From positions 1 through 64,000 of the forward strand of contig JAUNCG010000002.1 of assembly GCA_030526715.1 (NCBI GenBank): DNA of 64,000 bases. The letters are read 5' to 3'. This DNA is from Eubacteriales bacterium. Lineage in GTDB: Bacteria > Bacillota > Clostridia > Lachnospirales > Lachnospiraceae. The first letter of the stretch is position 1, and each line of letters starts with the position of its first letter. The position numbers and the translations under genes were made by a program. Under the pieces are notes generated by a model. The model worked only from the letters and a program-made list of their open reading frames with translations, was not told where the DNA came from and did not search any database. This document shows, one piece after another, positions 29,565-48,219 of the stretch.

Positions 29565-32027
29565 ATGAGCAAGAAATTTAACAAGAAACAGTTTATCAGC
29601 GAAGTAAAGGCAAATGTCAGAGCTCTTTACCGTAAGAATCTGGAAGAAGCTACACAGCAGCAGATCTTTCAGGCAGTTTCTTACGCAGTGAAGGATACCA
29701 TCATTGACAACTGGCTGGCAACGCAGGAGACCTACGAGGAGAAGGATCCGAAGTATGTTTACTATATGTCCATGGAGTTCCTGATGGGACGAGCTCTGGG
29801 AAATAACCTGATCAATCTCACAGAGTATGAGGAAGTGAAGGAAGCGCTTGCGGAGATCGGTTTTGATCTGAACGTGATCGAGGATCAGGAGCCGGATGCG
29901 GCTCTCGGCAACGGCGGTCTCGGTCGTCTGGCAGCATGCTTTTTGGATTCTCTGGCAAGCCTTGGCTATCCGGCATATGGCTGTGGTATCCGTTACCGCT
30001 ACGGTATGTTTAAGCAGAAGATCGAGGATGGCTATCAGGTAGAGGTTCCGGATAACTGGTTAAAGGATGGCAATCCGTTTGAGCTCCGTCGTCCGGAATA
30101 TGCAAAAGAAGTAAAATTCGGCGGCTATGTGCGTGTGGTTTATGATGAGAAGACCGGACGCAACCATTTCGTACAGGAGGGTTATCAGTCTGTACGTGCT
30201 GTGCCGTATGATTTTCCGATCGTTGGCTACAACAACCATGTGGTAAATACACTGCGCATCTGGGATGCAGAGGCAGTGACCGATTTCCAGCTCGATTCCT
30301 TTGATAAGGGCGATTATCGTAAGGCCGTTGAGCAGGAGAACCTTGCACGCAATATCGTTGAGGTTCTTTATCCGAATGATAACCACTATGCAGGTAAAGA
30401 GCTGCGTCTGAAGCAGCAGTACTTCTTTATTTCCGCAAGTGTACAGGCTGCGATTGCAAAATATAAAAAGAAACACAGCGATATCCGTAAGTTCTATGAG
30501 AAGGCTACCTTCCAGCTGAACGATACGCACCCGACCGTAGCGGTTGCAGAGCTGATGCGTATCCTGTTGGATGAGGAAGGCCTGACTTGGGAAGAGGCAT
30601 GGGATGTGACCACAAAGACCTGTGCTTACACCAACCACACCATCATGGCAGAGGCTCTGGAAAAATGGCCGATCGAGCTCTTCTCCAGACTGCTCCCGCG
30701 TGTATACCAGATCATCGAGGAGATCAACCGCCGCTTTGTGGCTGAGATCGAGGCGAGATATCCGGGGAACTTCGAGAAGGTGCGCAAGATGGCGATCATC
30801 TTTGACGGTCAGGTGAAGATGGCACATCTGGCTATCGCGGCAGGCTATTCTGTAAACGGTGTAGCGCGTCTGCATACCGAGATCCTTGAGAAGCAGGAGC
30901 TGAAGGACTTCTATGAGATGATGCCGGAGAAGTTTAACAATAAGACGAATGGTATCACACAGAGACGTTTCCTGCTTCATGCGAATCCGCTTCTGGCAGC
31001 ATGGGTGACCGATCATATCGGTGATGAGTGGGTGACCGATCTCCCGCAGATGGCGAAGCTGAAGGTATATGCGGATGACAAGAAGGCACAGCAGGAGTTC
31101 ATGAATATCAAGTATCAGAACAAGGTGCGTCTTGCGAAGTATATTCAGGAGCATAACGGTGTGACGGTAGATCCGCGCTCTATCTTCGATGTACAGGTGA
31201 AGAGACTGCATGAGTACAAGCGTCAGCTGCTGAACATTCTGCATGTGATGTATCTGTACAATCAGATCAAGGATCATCCGGAGATGGATTTCTATCCGAG
31301 AACCTTTATCTTCGGTGCAAAGGCAGCAGCAGGCTATCGCCGTGCGAAGCTGACGATTAAGCTGATCAACAGCGTTGCCGATGTGATCAACAACGATGCT
31401 TCTATTAATAATAAGATCAAGGTGGTCTTCATTGAGGATTACCGCGTATCTAACGCAGAGTGGATCTTCGCTGCGGCAGATGTCTCTGAGCAGATCTCTA
31501 CAGCATCCAAGGAGGCATCTGGAACCGGTAATATGAAGTTCATGCTGAACGGCGCTCCGACGCTGGGAACCATGGACGGCGCAAATGTTGAGATCGTGGA
31601 AGAGGTTGGCGAGGAGAATGCGTTTATCTTCGGTCTGAGCTCTGATGAGGTCATCAACTATGAGAACAATGGTGGTTATTATCCGGAGAATATCTTCAAC
31701 AGCGACCCGGATATCCGTCGCGTACTGATGCAGCTGATCAACGGCGAATATTCACAGGACGATCCGGAGAGATTCCGTGAGATCTATGATTCTCTGCTGA
31801 ACACCAAGAGCAGCGACCGTGCGGATACGTACTTCATTCTGGCAGACTTCAAGTCCTACGCAGCGGCTCAGAAGCGTGTCGAAGAAGCATACCGTGATGA
31901 GGCTCGTTGGGCGAAGATGGCAATGCTGAACACAGCATGCAGCGGCAAGTTCACATCTGACCGTACCATCCAGCAGTATGTCGATGAGATCTGGAAGCTC
32001 GAAAAGATGACCGTGAAGGTTAAATAA
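29565..32027 (+). CDS. glgP: Glycogen/maltodextrin phosphorylase
   Basis: 820 residues, GT35 family. It releases glucose-1-phosphate from alpha-1,4-glucans. Visible signatures are AALGNGGLGRLAACFLDS near 115 and the PLP site EASGTGNMKFMLNG, whose Lys binds the cofactor. AAGGAGAG precedes the ATG. It starts 16 bases after ileS with no terminator between, so it is probably read from the T-box-controlled transcript. That would couple glycogen breakdown to isoleucine starvation, unless an internal promoter exists. Confidence 0.96.
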   Translation: MSKKFNKKQFISEVKANVRALYRKNLEEATQQQIFQAVSYAVKDTIIDNWLATQETYEEKDPKYVYYMSMEFLMGRALGNNLINLTEYEEVKEALAEIGFDLNVIEDQEPDAALGNGGLGRLAACFLDSLASLGYPAYGCGIRYRYGMFKQKIEDGYQVEVPDNWLKDGNPFELRRPEYAKEVKFGGYVRVVYDEKTGRNHFVQEGYQSVRAVPYDFPIVGYNNHVVNTLRIWDAEAVTDFQLDSFDKGDYRKAVEQENLARNIVEVLYPNDNHYAGKELRLKQQYFFISASVQAAIAKYKKKHSDIRKFYEKATFQLNDTHPTVAVAELMRILLDEEGLTWEEAWDVTTKTCAYTNHTIMAEALEKWPIELFSRLLPRVYQIIEEINRRFVAEIEARYPGNFEKVRKMAIIFDGQVKMAHLAIAAGYSVNGVARLHTEILEKQELKDFYEMMPEKFNNKTNGITQRRFLLHANPLLAAWVTDHIGDEWVTDLPQMAKLKVYADDKKAQQEFMNIKYQNKVRLAKYIQEHNGVTVDPRSIFDVQVKRLHEYKRQLLNILHVMYLYNQIKDHPEMDFYPRTFIFGAKAAAGYRRAKLTIKLINSVADVINNDASINNKIKVVFIEDYRVSNAEWIFAAADVSEQISTASKEASGTGNMKFMLNGAPTLGTMDGANVEIVEEVGEENAFIFGLSSDEVINYENNGGYYPENIFNSDPDIRRVLMQLINGEYSQDDPERFREIYDSLLNTKSSDRADTYFILADFKSYAAAQKRVEEAYRDEARWAKMAMLNTACSGKFTSDRTIQQYVDEIWKLEKMTVKVK

Positions 32028-32035
32028 ATAATACG

Positions 32036-32062
32036 TATAATCAAAGACCCTCCGCATACAAT
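32036..32062 (+). promoter_or_regulatory. Candidate sigma-E promoter of spoIID
   Basis: GTATAAT (32035-32041), 13-bp spacer, then CATACAAT (32055-32062), which matches the B. subtilis sigma-E -10 consensus exactly. The -10 lies in the 5' arm of the glgP terminator, so the predicted start (about 32068) is in the 3' arm. Confidence 0.5.
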
Positions 32063-32080
32063 AGTATGGGAGGGTTTTTT
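32048..32080 (+). terminator. glgP terminator that carries the spoIID ribosome site in its 3' arm
   Basis: CCCTCCGCATAC (32048-32059) pairs with GTATGGGAGGG (32064-32074, one bulge), then six T directly followed by the spoIID ATG at 32081. GGAGGG in the 3' arm is the spoIID ribosome site, so read-through RNA would hide it. Confidence 0.8.
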
Positions 32081-32953
32081 ATGGAAAAAAAGATAGAACG
32101 TACACTGGCTCTGATATTACTTTTTTTGGCACTTCCCTGTGCCCTGATTATGCTGCTGGGAGGTCGGATGGAGAAGGTATATCGCACGATTCAGGATGAG
32201 GCGGCTTATATTTCCGTGCAGACCGGGCAGGGAATACGGGATATGAATCTGGAGGAATATGTCATCGGCGTGACGGCGGCGGAGATGCCGCAGAGCTATG
32301 AGCCGGAGGCTGTTAAGGCACAGATGGTGCTTACCCGTACAAATCTATATCGCAGCAAAGAGGAGGGGAAGGTCTGGCAGGGCGCTTATGTTCCACTGAC
32401 AGAATTGGAAGCGGCCGGTGTAGCGGACAAGTTTCTGAAGGCGCAGGAGGCCACGAAGCAGCAGATACTGACCTATGAGGGTGAGCCGGTGATGGCATCT
32501 TTTCATGCACTCAGTGCGGGGAATACCAGAAGCGGTGAGGAGACATTTCAGAATGAGGGGTATCCTTATCTGAAATCAAAGGCATGTCCGTCAGATAAAC
32601 GCGCAGATGACTATGAATGCCGTGTGCAGATCGCAGATGACTGGCGAGGGCTTACGGTGGTAAAAAAAGACAGTGCGGGTTACGTGCAGCAGGTGCAGAT
32701 CGGGGATGCCATATATTCCGGTGAAGAATTTCGCAATCTGCTCGGGCTGCCCTCGGCACATTTTCAGGTGGACGAGCGAAAAGAAGGCATTTTTTTGAAT
32801 ATTCAGGGAATCGGTCATGGCATCGGTATGAGTCAGAACACAGCGCAGGAGATGGCGTTGTCCGGGAAAAAATATAAAGAGATTCTCGGATATTTTTTTG
32901 AAGGTACCGGACTGCATAAGCTTTCGGTATCTGAATTGGCGGATATCAAATAG
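32081..32953 (+). CDS. spoIID: Stage II sporulation protein D (lytic transglycosylase)
   Basis: 290 residues: one N-terminal membrane span (about 7-28), then the SpoIID domain. The catalytic Glu is in TAAEMPQSYEPEA and the conserved GIGHGIGMSQ lies near the end. SpoIID cuts glycan strands during engulfment of the forespore, with SpoIIM and SpoIIP. ATG 32081 was chosen over one at 32066 because GGAGGG then lies six bases upstream. It is followed by spoIIQ, as in Clostridioides difficile. Expression is expected in the mother cell from a sigma-E promoter. Confidence 0.93.
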   Translation: MEKKIERTLALILLFLALPCALIMLLGGRMEKVYRTIQDEAAYISVQTGQGIRDMNLEEYVIGVTAAEMPQSYEPEAVKAQMVLTRTNLYRSKEEGKVWQGAYVPLTELEAAGVADKFLKAQEATKQQILTYEGEPVMASFHALSAGNTRSGEETFQNEGYPYLKSKACPSDKRADDYECRVQIADDWRGLTVVKKDSAGYVQQVQIGDAIYSGEEFRNLLGLPSAHFQVDERKEGIFLNIQGIGHGIGMSQNTAQEMALSGKKYKEILGYFFEGTGLHKLSVSELADIK

Positions 32954-32971: not shown

Positions 32972-33000
32972 GCATATTTCCCCTGTTTGTGGAAACGATA
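32972..33000 (+). promoter_or_regulatory. Candidate sigma-F promoter of spoIIQ
   Basis: GCATA (32972-32976) fits the sigma-F -35 (GYWTA); 14 bp later GGAAACGATA (32991-33000) fits most of the GGNNANAHTR -10. The spacer is one or two bases shorter than usual. spoIIQ is a sigma-F gene in known spore formers. Confidence 0.4.
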
Positions 33001-33061: not shown

Positions 33062-33946
33062 ATGCAAAAAGAAAAGATTTTGGAGATCCTGAGAAAACGG
33101 GGAACACTGGGGGTATTTACGCTCTGTCTGGTGGGGGCGGTGGCGTTTGCAACATATCAGACGGGCTATGACAGCAGAAATGCGACGCCTGATTCGGCAG
33201 TGGTCGGGAACGAAGGCACAATCAATGACGCAAAGCAGGACGCCGTAAATGAAGATGTGAGAGAATCGGAGCATGTGGCAGCGTCTACGAATGATGTAAA
33301 AGCCCAGATCGGAGTGAACGATCAGAATGCAGACAGACAGAAAATCCGTCCTATGATCTCAGAACATCAGCGGGAAGCGAAGGAGGCTGCCAGACAGAAT
33401 CAGACACAGACGGAGTCGGAAAAAGAGACGCAAACAGAGATACAAACAGAAACGCAGGCAGAAGGATCGGAGGCAGCTACGGTAGATGTCTCCTCCGGAA
33501 ATGTAGAGGCACAGCTGCAGCCAACGGTGAATTTTGATGAGGATATGAAGCTGACGTGGCCAGCTGCAGGTACAGTGCTGATGGATTACAATATGAGCTC
33601 TACAGAATATTTTCAGACCTTGAATCAGTATAAGTATAATCCGGCGCTGATCATCAGCAGTGAAGTAGGCAATCAGGTAATCGCTTCTGCCAGAGGCATC
33701 GTTGAGAGCATCGGCACAAATGAGGAGACCGGCACTACGCTGGTATTGAATCTCGGAAATAATTACACGCTGACATACGGTCAGCTAAAAGAGGTGACTG
33801 TGGCGGAGGGAGACGTGGTAGAGCAGGGACAGCTTCTGGGTTATGTCAGTGAGCCGACAAAATATTATTGCGAGGAGGGCAGCAATCTTTACTTTGCCAT
33901 GAAGAAAGATGGGCAGGCGGTGGATCCGTTTTTGTATCTCGAATAA
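33062..33946 (+). CDS. spoIIQ: SpoIIQ-like LytM/M23-fold protein with degenerate active site
   Basis: 294 residues: one membrane span (about 14-34), a Glu/Thr-rich linker (about 110-155), and a LytM/M23 fold from about 163 (LTWPAAGTV). SpoIIQ in the forespore pairs with SpoIIIAH in the mother cell to form a channel. The zinc ligands are lost: where active M23 enzymes have HxH near the end, this has Asn275 and Tyr277 (NLYFAMKKDG), and the SHL-type His is Gln241 (TYGQL). It should therefore be structural, like B. subtilis SpoIIQ and unlike the reported zinc-binding C. difficile protein. GAGGTGAC precedes the ATG. Position right after spoIID supports the call. Confidence 0.88.
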   Translation: MQKEKILEILRKRGTLGVFTLCLVGAVAFATYQTGYDSRNATPDSAVVGNEGTINDAKQDAVNEDVRESEHVAASTNDVKAQIGVNDQNADRQKIRPMISEHQREAKEAARQNQTQTESEKETQTEIQTETQAEGSEAATVDVSSGNVEAQLQPTVNFDEDMKLTWPAAGTVLMDYNMSSTEYFQTLNQYKYNPALIISSEVGNQVIASARGIVESIGTNEETGTTLVLNLGNNYTLTYGQLKEVTVAEGDVVEQGQLLGYVSEPTKYYCEEGSNLYFAMKKDGQAVDPFLYLE

Positions 33947-34160: not shown

Positions 34161-35324
34161 TTGAGAAAATTTAAAAACATGGCGGGGATCGCATTGATGT
34201 TCGTGCTGATATGTATGCTGACCACAGGAGTTTCTGCGGCAAGGATCAATCAGACAAAGCTGACGCTGAATGTAGGAGATATCTATGAGTTTAAGATGCT
34301 GGATACTCTTGAAGCGGCACAGTGGCGAAGCTCCAGCTATGTGAAAGCAAGTATTGATACGCAGGGACGTCTGGTTGCACGCAAAAAAGGTACTGTGACC
34401 ATCACGGCGAGGATCGACGGAGAAGAGTATACCTGTAAGGTGAAGATCAAACAGCCGGTAGCGGATATTGTTCTGAACAAGACGGAGCACACGCTGCAGC
34501 CGGGCAAGAAGGTAAAGCTCAAGGCCAGCGTCGTGCCTTCCAATGCGAACAATAAGAACATTATATGGAAGAGCAGCAACACCAGTATTGCGACGGTCAA
34601 TACCAAGGGGAAGGTCAAAGCAAAGAAGAACGGAGTGGTAACGATCACGGCGGTGGCGAAAGATGGCAGTAGGTCTTCTGCATCCTGTACCATTACGGTG
34701 GCGTCCGGCACAGTGCCTCCGGTACAGACAACGACTGTGACCGCAGCACCGGGACAGGCTTCGGCAAGAGCACTGCAGTACCTTGCAATCTTACAGAGCT
34801 ATTCCAATCAGGTGGTGACGGATCAGGCTCGCGGTATTACATGGAAGTATAATAGCAGCTATGAGAATCATTCCACATTTGCGGCAGAGCAGAAGAAGGC
34901 GCTGACGAAGAATACTCCCGCATACAGTAACTGTGCGCAGCTGGTACGCTGGGGGCTGCGGGATCTGGGACTTTTGAACGGCAAGCAGGTGTTCTGGAGC
35001 GTCTGGAGCGGTGGTAAGGCATACTTTAATTTTAATGCGGCGATCAAGAATGACTGGACGAATTTCACGAATAACTTCGAGATCATCACGGTAGACAAGA
35101 CGCCTGCACAGCTGGAGGCAGAGGGGAATCTTCTTCCGGGAGATATCTGCGGCTGGAACGGCGTACAGCATACAAATGTATACGCGGGCAACGGTCTCTG
35201 GTATGAGGGCGGCCGCCTGAGTAATGTGGTAAACGGAATATATACCGGTTTCGGACCGGTCAAAAGCTTAGGCATGACACCGTCCGGAGGAAAGACGATC
35301 CACCAGATTCTGAGAATTAAGTAG
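34161..35324 (+). CDS. Secreted Big_2-domain protein with NlpC/P60-like C-terminus (copy 1)
   Basis: 387 residues. The start is TTG at 34161 with GGGGAGGAAG upstream, opening a signal peptide (cut after about residue 26). A bacterial Ig-like Big_2 domain follows (about 105-190; SSNTSIATVNTKGKVKAKK). A C-terminal domain from about 205 carries Cys258 in SNCAQLVRW and His337 in GWNGVQHTNVYAG, spaced as in NlpC/P60-type papain-fold peptidases or amidases. The likely role is cell-wall binding and cleavage, though the domain is divergent. No sortase or lipid anchor is seen. The next gene is a diverged tandem copy. Confidence 0.82.
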   Translation: MRKFKNMAGIALMFVLICMLTTGVSAARINQTKLTLNVGDIYEFKMLDTLEAAQWRSSSYVKASIDTQGRLVARKKGTVTITARIDGEEYTCKVKIKQPVADIVLNKTEHTLQPGKKVKLKASVVPSNANNKNIIWKSSNTSIATVNTKGKVKAKKNGVVTITAVAKDGSRSSASCTITVASGTVPPVQTTTVTAAPGQASARALQYLAILQSYSNQVVTDQARGITWKYNSSYENHSTFAAEQKKALTKNTPAYSNCAQLVRWGLRDLGLLNGKQVFWSVWSGGKAYFNFNAAIKNDWTNFTNNFEIITVDKTPAQLEAEGNLLPGDICGWNGVQHTNVYAGNGLWYEGGRLSNVVNGIYTGFGPVKSLGMTPSGGKTIHQILRIK

Positions 35325-35359: not shown

Positions 35360-36658
35360 GTGAGAATAGGTAAGAGACTTGGAATATTTGCATTTCTGCT
35401 TCTTCTGGTATGCATGATGCCAATGGGGGCTCTGGCGGCAAAGGAAGGCCTAAACAAGAAGAATGTAACGCTGTATGTCGGGCAGGAAACCAGAATCAAG
35501 GTGAAAAATGCCAGTCGTAAGGTAGAATGGTCTACCAACGCCCCGGGTAAGCTGGATCTGAAAAACGGATGGATCGCAGCCAGAAGCAGGGGAAAGGCAA
35601 AGGTACGGGCGAAGGTCGGGAAAAAGACCTATAAATGTACGGTGCTTATCAAACAGCAGGTGACATCGATCACACTCAATCAGGGATCGGGACGCATGGC
35701 TATCGGAAAATGGATGAAGATGAATCCGACGGTTCTGCCGGTCAATGCAGATGATCAGAAAATTATCTGGAGCAGCAGTGATAAGTCGATCGCTAAGGTG
35801 AACAAGAAAGGGAATGTCAAGGCATTGTCTAAGGGGACGGTAACTATTACGGCGACGGCTGCGGATGGCTTCGGAGCAACGGATTCATGGGAGATCACGG
35901 TGATGACGCAGGAAGAGCTGGAGGAGCTGGAGCGTCGGGAGGCTGCAAGTCAGCCGTCACCGCGTGCGCTTCAGTTTCTGAATATTCTTCAGGAATACTC
36001 AGCGCAGGTAGCAGTAGATGCAGCCAGAGAGGGAGCAGATAAGCTGCTCTGGGTCTATGACGCTTATTATGGAAGCGAGGGCGTGACATGGGAGATCGAA
36101 CGCGCGAATGCACAGAATCGCGGCGGAGTGAATAATCAGAAGATTAAGAAGGTAGTGGATCCTGTGACTGGACAGGAGAGTACAACGGTCGATCAGGGAG
36201 CTCAGATTGCGTATACGAACTGCGCGCTGCTTCTTCGATGGGCACTGAAGGATCCGCGGCTGGCGCTTTTGAGTCCTTCAGAGAGCTTTTGGAGCAAATG
36301 GGAGGGCGGTAAGGCGTGGTTCTATTTCAACGGACCTTTGAAGAAAAATCTGGAACATTTTTATGAGAACTTCGAAGTGATTACCGTGGATAAGACGCCT
36401 GCGCAGCTGGAGGCAGAGGGCAATCTTCTTCCGGGAGATATCTGTGGCTGGAATGGAATGCAGCATACGAACGTGTACGCAGGGAATCATACATGGTACG
36501 AGGGCGGCCGTGTAAGCGGAGGCTCCTATCAGACGGTTATGATCGGAGGAAAGAATAAGAAGGATAAATATGTCTTCAAGACCTTTGGACCGGTCACCGG
36601 TGTCGGTATGATACCGTCCAGAGGAAGAACCATTCATCAGATTATTCGAATAAAATAG
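35360..36658 (+). CDS. Secreted Big_2-domain protein with NlpC/P60-like C-terminus (copy 2)
   Basis: 432 residues, a paralogue of the preceding gene. GTG start at 35360 with AGGAGGG upstream; signal peptide to about residue 27; Big_2 domain (about 95-185; SSSDKSIAKVNKKGNVKA). The catalytic-type domain has Cys288 (YTNCALLLRW) and His369 (GWNGMQHTNVYAG). The block VDKTPAQLEAEGNLLPGDI is identical in both copies. This copy has about 35 extra residues between the Ig-like domain and the Cys, plus a short insert near the end. The genes lie 35 bases apart, so they are one operon made by tandem duplication. The stop codon is the first part of the repeat element that follows. Confidence 0.82.
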   Translation: MRIGKRLGIFAFLLLLVCMMPMGALAAKEGLNKKNVTLYVGQETRIKVKNASRKVEWSTNAPGKLDLKNGWIAARSRGKAKVRAKVGKKTYKCTVLIKQQVTSITLNQGSGRMAIGKWMKMNPTVLPVNADDQKIIWSSSDKSIAKVNKKGNVKALSKGTVTITATAADGFGATDSWEITVMTQEELEELERREAASQPSPRALQFLNILQEYSAQVAVDAAREGADKLLWVYDAYYGSEGVTWEIERANAQNRGGVNNQKIKKVVDPVTGQESTTVDQGAQIAYTNCALLLRWALKDPRLALLSPSESFWSKWEGGKAWFYFNGPLKKNLEHFYENFEVITVDKTPAQLEAEGNLLPGDICGWNGMQHTNVYAGNHTWYEGGRVSGGSYQTVMIGGKNKKDKYVFKTFGPVTGVGMIPSRGRTIHQIIRIK

Positions 36659-46578: not shown

Positions 46579-46588
46579 AAAAATATAT

Positions 46589-46617
46589 TCATAAGCAGAA
46601 CCCTCTGCGCATAGTCT
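46589..46617 (+). promoter_or_regulatory. Candidate sigma-E promoter of sipL
   Basis: TCATAAG (46589-46595), 14-bp spacer, CATAGTCT (46610-46617). The -10 lies within the 5' arm of the hairpin before sipL. Confidence 0.4.
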
Positions 46618-46650
46618 GCTAAGAGACAGACCATGCGGGAGGGATTTTTT
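46601..46650 (+). terminator. Terminator hairpin carrying the sipL ribosome site in its 3' arm
   Basis: The left arm from CCCTC to GTCTG (46601-46618) pairs with the right arm 46627-46643, ending GGGAGGG. ATTTTTT and the GTG start at 46651 follow at once. The arrangement is the same as before spoIID. Confidence 0.7.
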
Positions 46651-48219
46651 GTGGAGATTTTAAAGAAAAAGATTCGAATGATGTTTGAAAAATGCAGTGT
46701 AGTAACGCAGGTGACTCTGGATGAGGACAGTAACGTGCCGGACAGTCAGCCGGATGTGGAGCGAATCATCCAGAAATCGGCGGTCGTGAAGGTGGAGGAT
46801 ATCCGCACATCTACAGATCGCGTGAGCATCACGGGAGCATTGCAGGTGAAGGTGCTGTATCTGGCGGACACGACCGAGCACCAGCTGCAGCGACTAAATA
46901 TGACCTTGCCTTTTGCCGAGACGCAGATGCTGGAGGGATGCTCCGGAGAGGAAGGGGTCCATGTGCAGTGGGATATCGAGGATGTCACGGTGAAGCTTAT
47001 CAACTCAAGAAAGCTGAGCGTGCGAGCGCTGCTGGTGTTTACTTCGGCCTTGAAGGAGGCCCGTGAGGCGACGGCGGCGGTGGAGGTTCTGGGAGTACCG
47101 GAGCTGAGTGTACAGCAGCGCACGCTGGAGCTTCTGCAGCCGGTCACTCAGAAGAGGGACGTTCTTCGCGTGAAGGAGGAGCTGTCGGTTCCCTCCAATA
47201 AGCCGGACATTGCGGATATTCTGTGGGGCAATCTGGAACTGCGGGGCACGGATATCCGAATAAAAGAGGGAGCCTTTGATGTGCGGGGAGAGCTGTTTGT
47301 CTTTGTACTCTATGAGGGAGAGGATGAGGGAAAAAGCCGTCAGTGGATGGAGACAGCTCTGCCGTTCCAGATGCGGGTGGAATGTGAGCTGTGTTCTGCG
47401 GAGCAGATCGCGCAGATTGGAGTGAAGCTTGCCGAGAGCAGTGTGGAGGTCGGTGCGGACGAGGATGGGGAGCGAAGACGGATCATGCTGGAGGCGGTGC
47501 TGAATCTCGACATCAAGCTCTATCAGGAGGAACAGGTCAGCATTGTGGAGGATGTCTATACACCGGTACGGGAGCTGGTCCCGGTGCGGGAAGAACAGAC
47601 CTGTGAGAGTCTGCTCATGAAAAATACTTCCCGGATTCGAAGCACGGAAAGGATCCGGTTGGACAGTCGGCAGCCAAGGATCCTTCAAATCTGCAGCAGT
47701 CAGGGAGCCGTCAGGATCGATGATACGAAAATGACAGAAAAGGGGATCCGGGTAGAAGGCGCTGTTCTGGTGAATACGCTGTATGTGACGGCGGACGATC
47801 TGATTCCTTATGCGGTGATGGAGGGCGCGGTACCCTTTTCCCAGATTATCGAGGCAGAGGGAATTACGGAAAACTGCAGATATGATATCCATACCGAGCT
47901 GGAGCAGCTCTCCGTAAATATGACGGACAGTGAAGAAATCGAGGTGAAATCCAGTGTCAGCCTGTCGGCATTTGTAGTGCGGGTACGCCGGGAAGCCTGT
48001 ATAGTGGAGATTGAAGAACGCGAGCAGGATCTGAAAAAATTACAGGAAATACCGGGCATTGTTGGTTACGTTGTACAGCCGGAGGATACGCTGTGGAAAA
48101 TAGCGAGAACATATTATACGACACCGGATCGGATCTGTTCCCTGAATCAGATAAAAGAGACAGACCTTCAGCCCGGCATGGGGCTGATACTGCTGAAAAC
48201 AGTCAATGGTGGTGATTGA
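46651..48219 (+). CDS. sipL: SipL-like spore-coat morphogenetic protein (SPOCS repeats + LysM)
   Basis: 522 residues. It contains repeated DUF3794/SPOCS regions (VTLDEDSNVPDSQPDVERI near 20; a second NKPDIADILWG near 190; a third near 330-450) and a C-terminal LysM domain (about 472-518; QPEDTLWKIARTYY). In C. difficile, SipL (about the same length and layout) binds SpoIVA and is needed for coat assembly, replacing SpoVID. GTG 46651 was chosen over an ATG at 46633 because GGGAGGG then lies seven bases upstream and the N-terminus matches the family. Its start region is a terminator-type hairpin with a sigma-E-like promoter. Confidence 0.88.
   Translation: MEILKKKIRMMFEKCSVVTQVTLDEDSNVPDSQPDVERIIQKSAVVKVEDIRTSTDRVSITGALQVKVLYLADTTEHQLQRLNMTLPFAETQMLEGCSGEEGVHVQWDIEDVTVKLINSRKLSVRALLVFTSALKEAREATAAVEVLGVPELSVQQRTLELLQPVTQKRDVLRVKEELSVPSNKPDIADILWGNLELRGTDIRIKEGAFDVRGELFVFVLYEGEDEGKSRQWMETALPFQMRVECELCSAEQIAQIGVKLAESSVEVGADEDGERRRIMLEAVLNLDIKLYQEEQVSIVEDVYTPVRELVPVREEQTCESLLMKNTSRIRSTERIRLDSRQPRILQICSSQGAVRIDDTKMTEKGIRVEGAVLVNTLYVTADDLIPYAVMEGAVPFSQIIEAEGITENCRYDIHTELEQLSVNMTDSEEIEVKSSVSLSAFVVRVRREACIVEIEEREQDLKKLQEIPGIVGYVVQPEDTLWKIARTYYTTPDRICSLNQIKETDLQPGMGLILLKTVNGGD

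Follow-up and report, generated by a model that had tools for sequence, protein, structure and literature searches.

A candidate developmental latch ahead of spoIID, combining a sigma-E-type promoter, a terminator-like hairpin and a ribosome binding site

The short intergenic region ahead of spoIID, in the 64-kb stretch of DNA analysed here (the window), which comes from a spore former that, judging by gene content, is probably a Lachnospiraceae-like bacterium of the class Clostridia, contains an element of about 38 nt that combines a promoter, a terminator-like hairpin and a ribosome binding site, and that quite probably works as a developmental latch. Polymerase arriving from the upstream gene, glgP, would transcribe the whole hairpin, and most of it should stop at the U-tract; in any RNA that passes this terminator the Shine-Dalgarno sequence (SD) is strongly predicted by folding to be locked in the stem, so that the RNA would go untranslated. 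Once sigma-E is active in the mother cell, polymerase would instead start inside the element, and the geometry of the promoter implies that the resulting RNA would lack the 5' arm and have its SD free. Termination, if working, and SD locking would therefore act in series on read-through RNA, the sigma-E RNA being untouched by both, and SpoIID would be made only after sigma-E activation. SpoIID is a peptidoglycan-degrading engulfment enzyme that should do harm if produced early. The same latch may be used in this genome at sipL, spoIVA and spoIIID, ahead of which the element is also present.

The glgP stop codon (32025-32027) and the spoIID ATG are separated by 53 bases, which hold the features listed in Table 1. 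The 5' side of the stem is formed by ACCCTCC (32047-32053), a bulged G (32054) and CATAC (32055-32059), the loop is AATA (32060-32063), and the 3' side is formed by GTATG (32064-32068) and GGAGGGT (32069-32075); flanking AAAGA and TTTTT allow the stem to be extended to 32043-32079. A first-pass annotation of this DNA had described a hairpin carrying the SD in its 3' arm and followed by T6 and the ATG, with an exact sigma-E -10 in the 5' arm, and the sequence of 32043-32081 agrees on both counts. The fold of the RNA spanning 32020-32110 (-25.1 kcal/mol, z = -5) was equalled in stability by 0 of 200 shuffles. As in intrinsic terminators, a stable GC-rich stem is immediately followed by T6, and as in sigma-E promoters, a CATANNNT-type -10 (CATACAAT) stands 13 nt from an ATA-core -35, within the allowed 13-15 nt. 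The match of this -35, GTATAAT, to the sigma-E pattern is imperfect, comprising the central ATA and five of seven positions; a sigma-E -35 with ATA is stated in PMC3789822. The hairpin is missing from the list produced by a simple terminator scan, probably because its stem is bulged, and a scan of the element against Rfam 15 found no described RNA family, the best matches (E = 0.11 and 0.81) falling far under the gathering scores. A second in-frame ATG, at 32066, lies within the 3' arm of the hairpin and is where the list of open reading frames begins the gene; the ATG at 32081, preceded by GGAGGG and T6, is the better candidate for the start.

Table 1. Coordinates of the spoIID and sipL elements and of their flanking genes in the window.
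Feature	Position	Strand	Basis
glgP, glycogen/starch phosphorylase; codirectional upstream gene, possible source of read-through	29565..32027	+	PF00343 E=0, TIGR02093; 29565 is the first in-frame ATG
GTATAAT, sigma-E-like -35 (ATA core), 13-nt spacer to -10	32035..32041	+	sequence
Hairpin, promoter -10 in 5' arm and SD in 3' arm; -21.9 kcal/mol	32043..32079 (core 32047-32075)	+	folding; covariation in relatives
CATACAAT, exact sigma-E-type -10, pairs with GTATG of 3' arm	32055..32062	+	sequence; CATA invariant in 19 relatives
Candidate sigma-E transcript start, 12-15 nt past C of CATA; leader ~11-14 nt	32067..32070	+	inferred from promoter geometry
GGAGGG, SD of spoIID and hairpin 3' arm	32069..32074	+	sequence, folding
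T6, U-tract of terminator-like hairpin and SD-to-start spacer	32075..32080	+	sequence
spoIID	32081..32953	+	TIGR02870 E=2e-54, PF08486 4e-14
TTCATAA, sigma-E-like -35, 15 nt ahead of CATAGTCT	46588..46594	+	sequence
Second copy of the element: hairpin (-24 kcal/mol), then T tract and GTG 46651	46597..46650	+	folding
sipL, coat morphogenetic gene, SPOCS domains and LysM	46651..48219	+	PF12673 E=2e-51 in three stretches, LysM 3e-12

The effect that the point of transcription start would have on access to the ribosome binding site was evaluated by folding RNAs initiated upstream of each element and RNAs beginning at the predicted start. For spoIID, the SD of the upstream-initiated RNA has an unpaired probability of 0.00 and costs 16.7 kcal/mol to open, versus 2.7 kcal/mol in RNAs beginning at 32067-32069, as anticipated by the first-pass annotation, which had the site paired in read-through RNA and free in a transcript without the 5' arm. 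The corresponding costs are 10.2 versus 3.6 kcal/mol for sipL, 19.7 versus 3.6 kcal/mol for spoIVA, and 5-8 versus 3.2 kcal/mol for spoIIID, the hairpin of which is weaker in this genome and has a separate terminator just upstream. The predicted sigma-E leaders, at about 12 nt, are short, and this was counted against the latch.

The recurrence of the element at spoIID orthologs was then assessed in 299 family genomes, almost every one from a different genus, and in eight genomes of the genus, among which 119 upstream regions were read. A loose test called for a hairpin of at least 8 bp and -9 kcal/mol with the SD in its 3' arm and CATANNNT in its 5' arm or loop, and a strict test for -13 kcal/mol and a T-run ahead of the start; shuffled controls held the -10 and SD in place. 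These folding tests and shuffles, together with a covariance model, took the place of loose DNA patterns (CATANNNT plus SD), for which chance matches dominated both within the own genome and across the family, in forward searches as in reversed controls. The loose test was passed by 43 of the 119 loci and the strict test by 32, against a shuffle mean of 0.5 and a maximum of 2. The build is hence present at only about a third of the family loci and is optional at spoIID. The distance from CATA to the start codon is mostly 24-32 nt, and for 41 of the 43 loci a transcription start set 14 nt past the C of CATA lies beyond the 5' arm, within the loop or the 3' arm. A -35 score of at least 6 was obtained for 63% of the family spoIID matches versus 8% of random positions, an enrichment of properly spaced ATA-type -35 sequences that marks CATA as a promoter element. 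Of the seven genus members with spoIID, five satisfy the loose test; in the other two (G003, G006) the hairpin retains the -10, and the probable SD and start are found some 30-40 nt beyond it, so that SD locking can be lost.

The first-pass annotation had also proposed searching other sporulation genes for a hairpin, SD, T-tract and start codon in this order, and the arrangement was found at sipL, spoIVA and spoIIID. In the sipL hairpin, CATAGTCT (46610-46617) occupies the 5' arm and GGGAGGG (46637-46643) the 3' arm. When all SD-bearing ORFs of 100 aa or more in the window were scanned, the element was located at two of 39, spoIID and sipL; in a control set of random loci it was located at 1 of 75 ORFs. 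Among relatives, in genomes that were chosen, with few exceptions, for having the spoIID element and whose fractions are therefore not family averages, it was identified at 15 of 28 spoIVA loci and 14 of 24 spoIIID loci with the strict test (shuffles, 0.4 and 0.1, respectively) and at 9 of 29 sipL loci with the loose test, including all four of the genus members. Most sipL loci without the element begin within a few nt of the end of the preceding ORF, as operon members would. For the control gene spoIIP, 0 of 30 loci presented the strict element and 4 of 30 the loose one, and for spoIIIAA a single locus of 27 passed the loose test. All four genes carrying the element here, spoIID, spoIVA, sipL and spoIIID, are expressed under sigma-E in C. 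difficile (PMC3789822).

A covariance model built from spoIID sequences only and run over 60 genomes gave two matches in the whole own genome, ahead of spoIID and spoIVA. In the own genome, occurrences of the element were thus counted from family searches and from this model search. The stronger matches in relatives are mostly at sporulation genes; they lie ahead of spoIID, spoIVA and the genes for SpoVAD, for a GerA protein, for a D-Ala-D-Ala carboxypeptidase and for a protein of 420 aa that carries a peptidoglycan-binding domain. Several weaker ones have no gene behind them and resemble plain terminators. Such recurrence at several key spore genes of relatives suggests, as far as sequence can tell, a shared safety catch on development. 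Among spoIVA loci from the same class but outside the family, the element was found at 0 of 30, so that the habit looks like an invention of the family, one spoIID in another family of the order (G074) being similar by eye.

The gene upstream of the element bears directly on the simplest competing account, in which the hairpin is no more than the upstream gene's intrinsic terminator; under tight packing its 3' arm and U-tract would happen to double as SD and spacer, with the 5' arm acting as promoter, and the translational locking would have no selected role. The spoIID hairpin is indeed commonest behind glgP (21 of 35 loci, versus 13 of 82 other loci), several glgP-spoIID pairs without the element have a separate terminator hairpin, and the two genus members mentioned above retain a promoter-hairpin that does not cover the SD. 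Against this, the element stays with spoIID in sister species in which a rubrerythrin-like or other gene replaces glgP, and it recurs behind unrelated genes at spoIVA (gpsA-like, cysK-like and others), spoIIID and sipL, while missing at the other genes of the window and at spoIIP; the gpsA, cysK and rubrerythrin labels were read by eye from C-terminal sequences. An excess of codirectional upstream genes at hairpin loci was dropped as evidence because its significance depends on the ORF caller (p = 0.0014 with one, p = 0.78 with another). Weighing both sides, we consider the terminator-only account unlikely. The first-pass annotation had named the hairpin the glgP terminator; since the element is kept with spoIID when the upstream gene differs, it is better viewed as belonging to the control region of spoIID. 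The remainder of that interpretation is supported wherever sequence can test it; termination, the transcript start and sigma-E dependence are inferred.

The inverted repeat might alternatively be a DNA operator over the sigma-E -10 for a dimeric regulator, such as a SpoIIID-like protein or another repressor, the RNA hairpin being incidental; the SpoIIID binding site at the B. subtilis spoIID promoter does span the -10 and -35 (PMC517825). Conservation of the hairpin was analyzed in an alignment of 19 short-hairpin spoIID sequences. Paired cells amounted to 93% of the alignment, versus 81.5% with shuffled partners and at most 65% in slid controls, and two-sided changes numbered 32 versus 9.1 in shuffles, with 0 of 500 shuffles matching the pairing and change figures. 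Pairing is kept through G-U pairs as well as two-sided changes. The arms differ in sequence and the loops range in length from 3 to more than 10 nt, whereas pairing, CATA, SD and T-tract are constant, and the maintenance of pairing despite variable arms and loops is the mark of a structure acting as RNA. Half-sites and spacing would have to be fixed if a dimer bound here, but what stays constant is the -10, the SD and the T-tract. With its arms covarying and its loop lengths varying, the repeat is very improbable as an operator, and this reading was rejected. Chance folding of a GC-rich SD near a CATA box in a GC-rich genome is scarcely credible, for although loose criteria do yield some false matches (4 of 30 at spoIIP), the excess over shuffles preserving the -10 and SD, the covariation and the gene specificity all speak against it.

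The logic of the proposed latch is already known. In phage T4, gene e (lysozyme), soc, 49 and I-TevI have a hairpin over the ribosome binding site with a late promoter in its 5' strand, and for gene e the hairpin-bearing RNA is translated 100-fold less and late transcripts begin inside the 5' strand (PMC3014915). The spoIID element resembles this type, as described there, in having its SD hidden in upstream-initiated RNA, a putative stage promoter (CATACAAT) in the 5' strand, a predicted late RNA that lacks this strand and would be translated, and a stage-specific start that would follow a change of sigma factor. It differs in that the T4 examples belong to a phage, depend on gp55 for the late promoter and have hairpins that are not described as terminators in the passage cited; the spoIID 3' arm leads directly to a T5-T6 tract followed by the start codon, and several genes of one bacterial regulon share the element. 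In B. subtilis, a large hairpin of 20 or more bp at sigG (spoIIIG) has been proposed to block translation of spoIIGA-sigE read-through RNA, and cannot form in RNA from PsigG (PMC5942855, Fig. 1D). Both cases involve a sporulation gene, a hairpin in read-through RNA only and the escape of RNA from the gene's own promoter. At sigG, however, the promoter is a forespore one (sigma-F/G), a single gene is concerned and the guard is against another sporulation operon, whereas here the neighbours are vegetative, the promoter is sigma-E-like and the element recurs at spoIID, sipL, spoIVA and spoIIID. Translational control at spoIIID also has a parallel in B. subtilis, where spoIIID translation needs an upstream small ORF, usd (Decatur et al. 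1997, as cited in PMC4474612); going by that citation, the usd block is relieved by translation of the upstream ORF, and here it would be relieved by the position of the transcript start. The element shares with intrinsic (Rho-independent) terminators a GC-rich hairpin and T-tract ending a codirectional gene, and departs from them in having a promoter -10 in one arm, an SD in the other and a start codon immediately after. A literature search, with many subscription journals outside its reach, found no description of such a promoter-hairpin-SD build. What is new is the union of this logic with a terminator-like U-tract and a sigma-E-type promoter, and its recurrence at several genes of one regulon across the family.

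The broadest reading of these data, to which we give even weight for and against, is that a spore-former lineage fused promoter, terminator and ribosome site in one cis element and uses it independently of neighbouring genes at several early mother-cell genes (spoIID, spoIVA, spoIIID, sipL and perhaps more), as a regulon-wide double lock of termination and SD occlusion that would be set only by the point of transcription start. In compact genomes, developmental genes directly follow vegetative housekeeping genes, which raises the question of how mistimed lytic or morphogenetic spore proteins are avoided despite leaky read-through. The element would be a simple answer requiring no extra regulator, in which the sigma factor sets the 5' end and the 5' end sets readability. 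Its signature could guide the search for tightly locked sporulation genes among uncultured bacteria, and the element itself could serve synthetic biology as a compact insulator-promoter-RBS design.

Several further observations were made along the way. In one genus member (L005, G003:C1) the spoIID hairpin is larger, with an inner hairpin of about 45 nt separating the CATA arm from the G-rich arm, which looks like an insertion into the loop. In the window, a perfect sigma-F-like promoter (GCATA-N14-GGAAACGAT, 32972-32999) lies 63 bases before a SpoIIQ-like M23 gene at 33062, and just 3' of spoIIQ are two adjacent genes (34161-35324 and 35360-36658) for paralogous secreted proteins with Ig-like repeats and a common C-terminal domain. 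A protein of about 420 aa that has a peptidoglycan-binding domain at its C-terminus and also contains a SpoIID/SleB-like stretch is encoded behind a latch-type hairpin three times (L417, L399 and L404, in G001, G021 and G020) and is probably an unrecognised sporulation protein. Latch-like hairpins also precede spoVAD (L395, G008) and a GerA-type gene (L396, G068), both probably forespore genes, a hint that the build may also serve other sporulation sigma factors. Lastly, SpoIVA is shortened to about 256 aa in this genus (L262, G000:C109:35000-38200, ORF from 1997; L263-L266 in four sister species), where only positions ~240-492 of the TIGR02836 profile are left and the N-terminal ATPase domain is missing. 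This ATPase is considered central to coat assembly, and the shortened protein, whose start still follows the latch hairpin, therefore deserves a study of its own.
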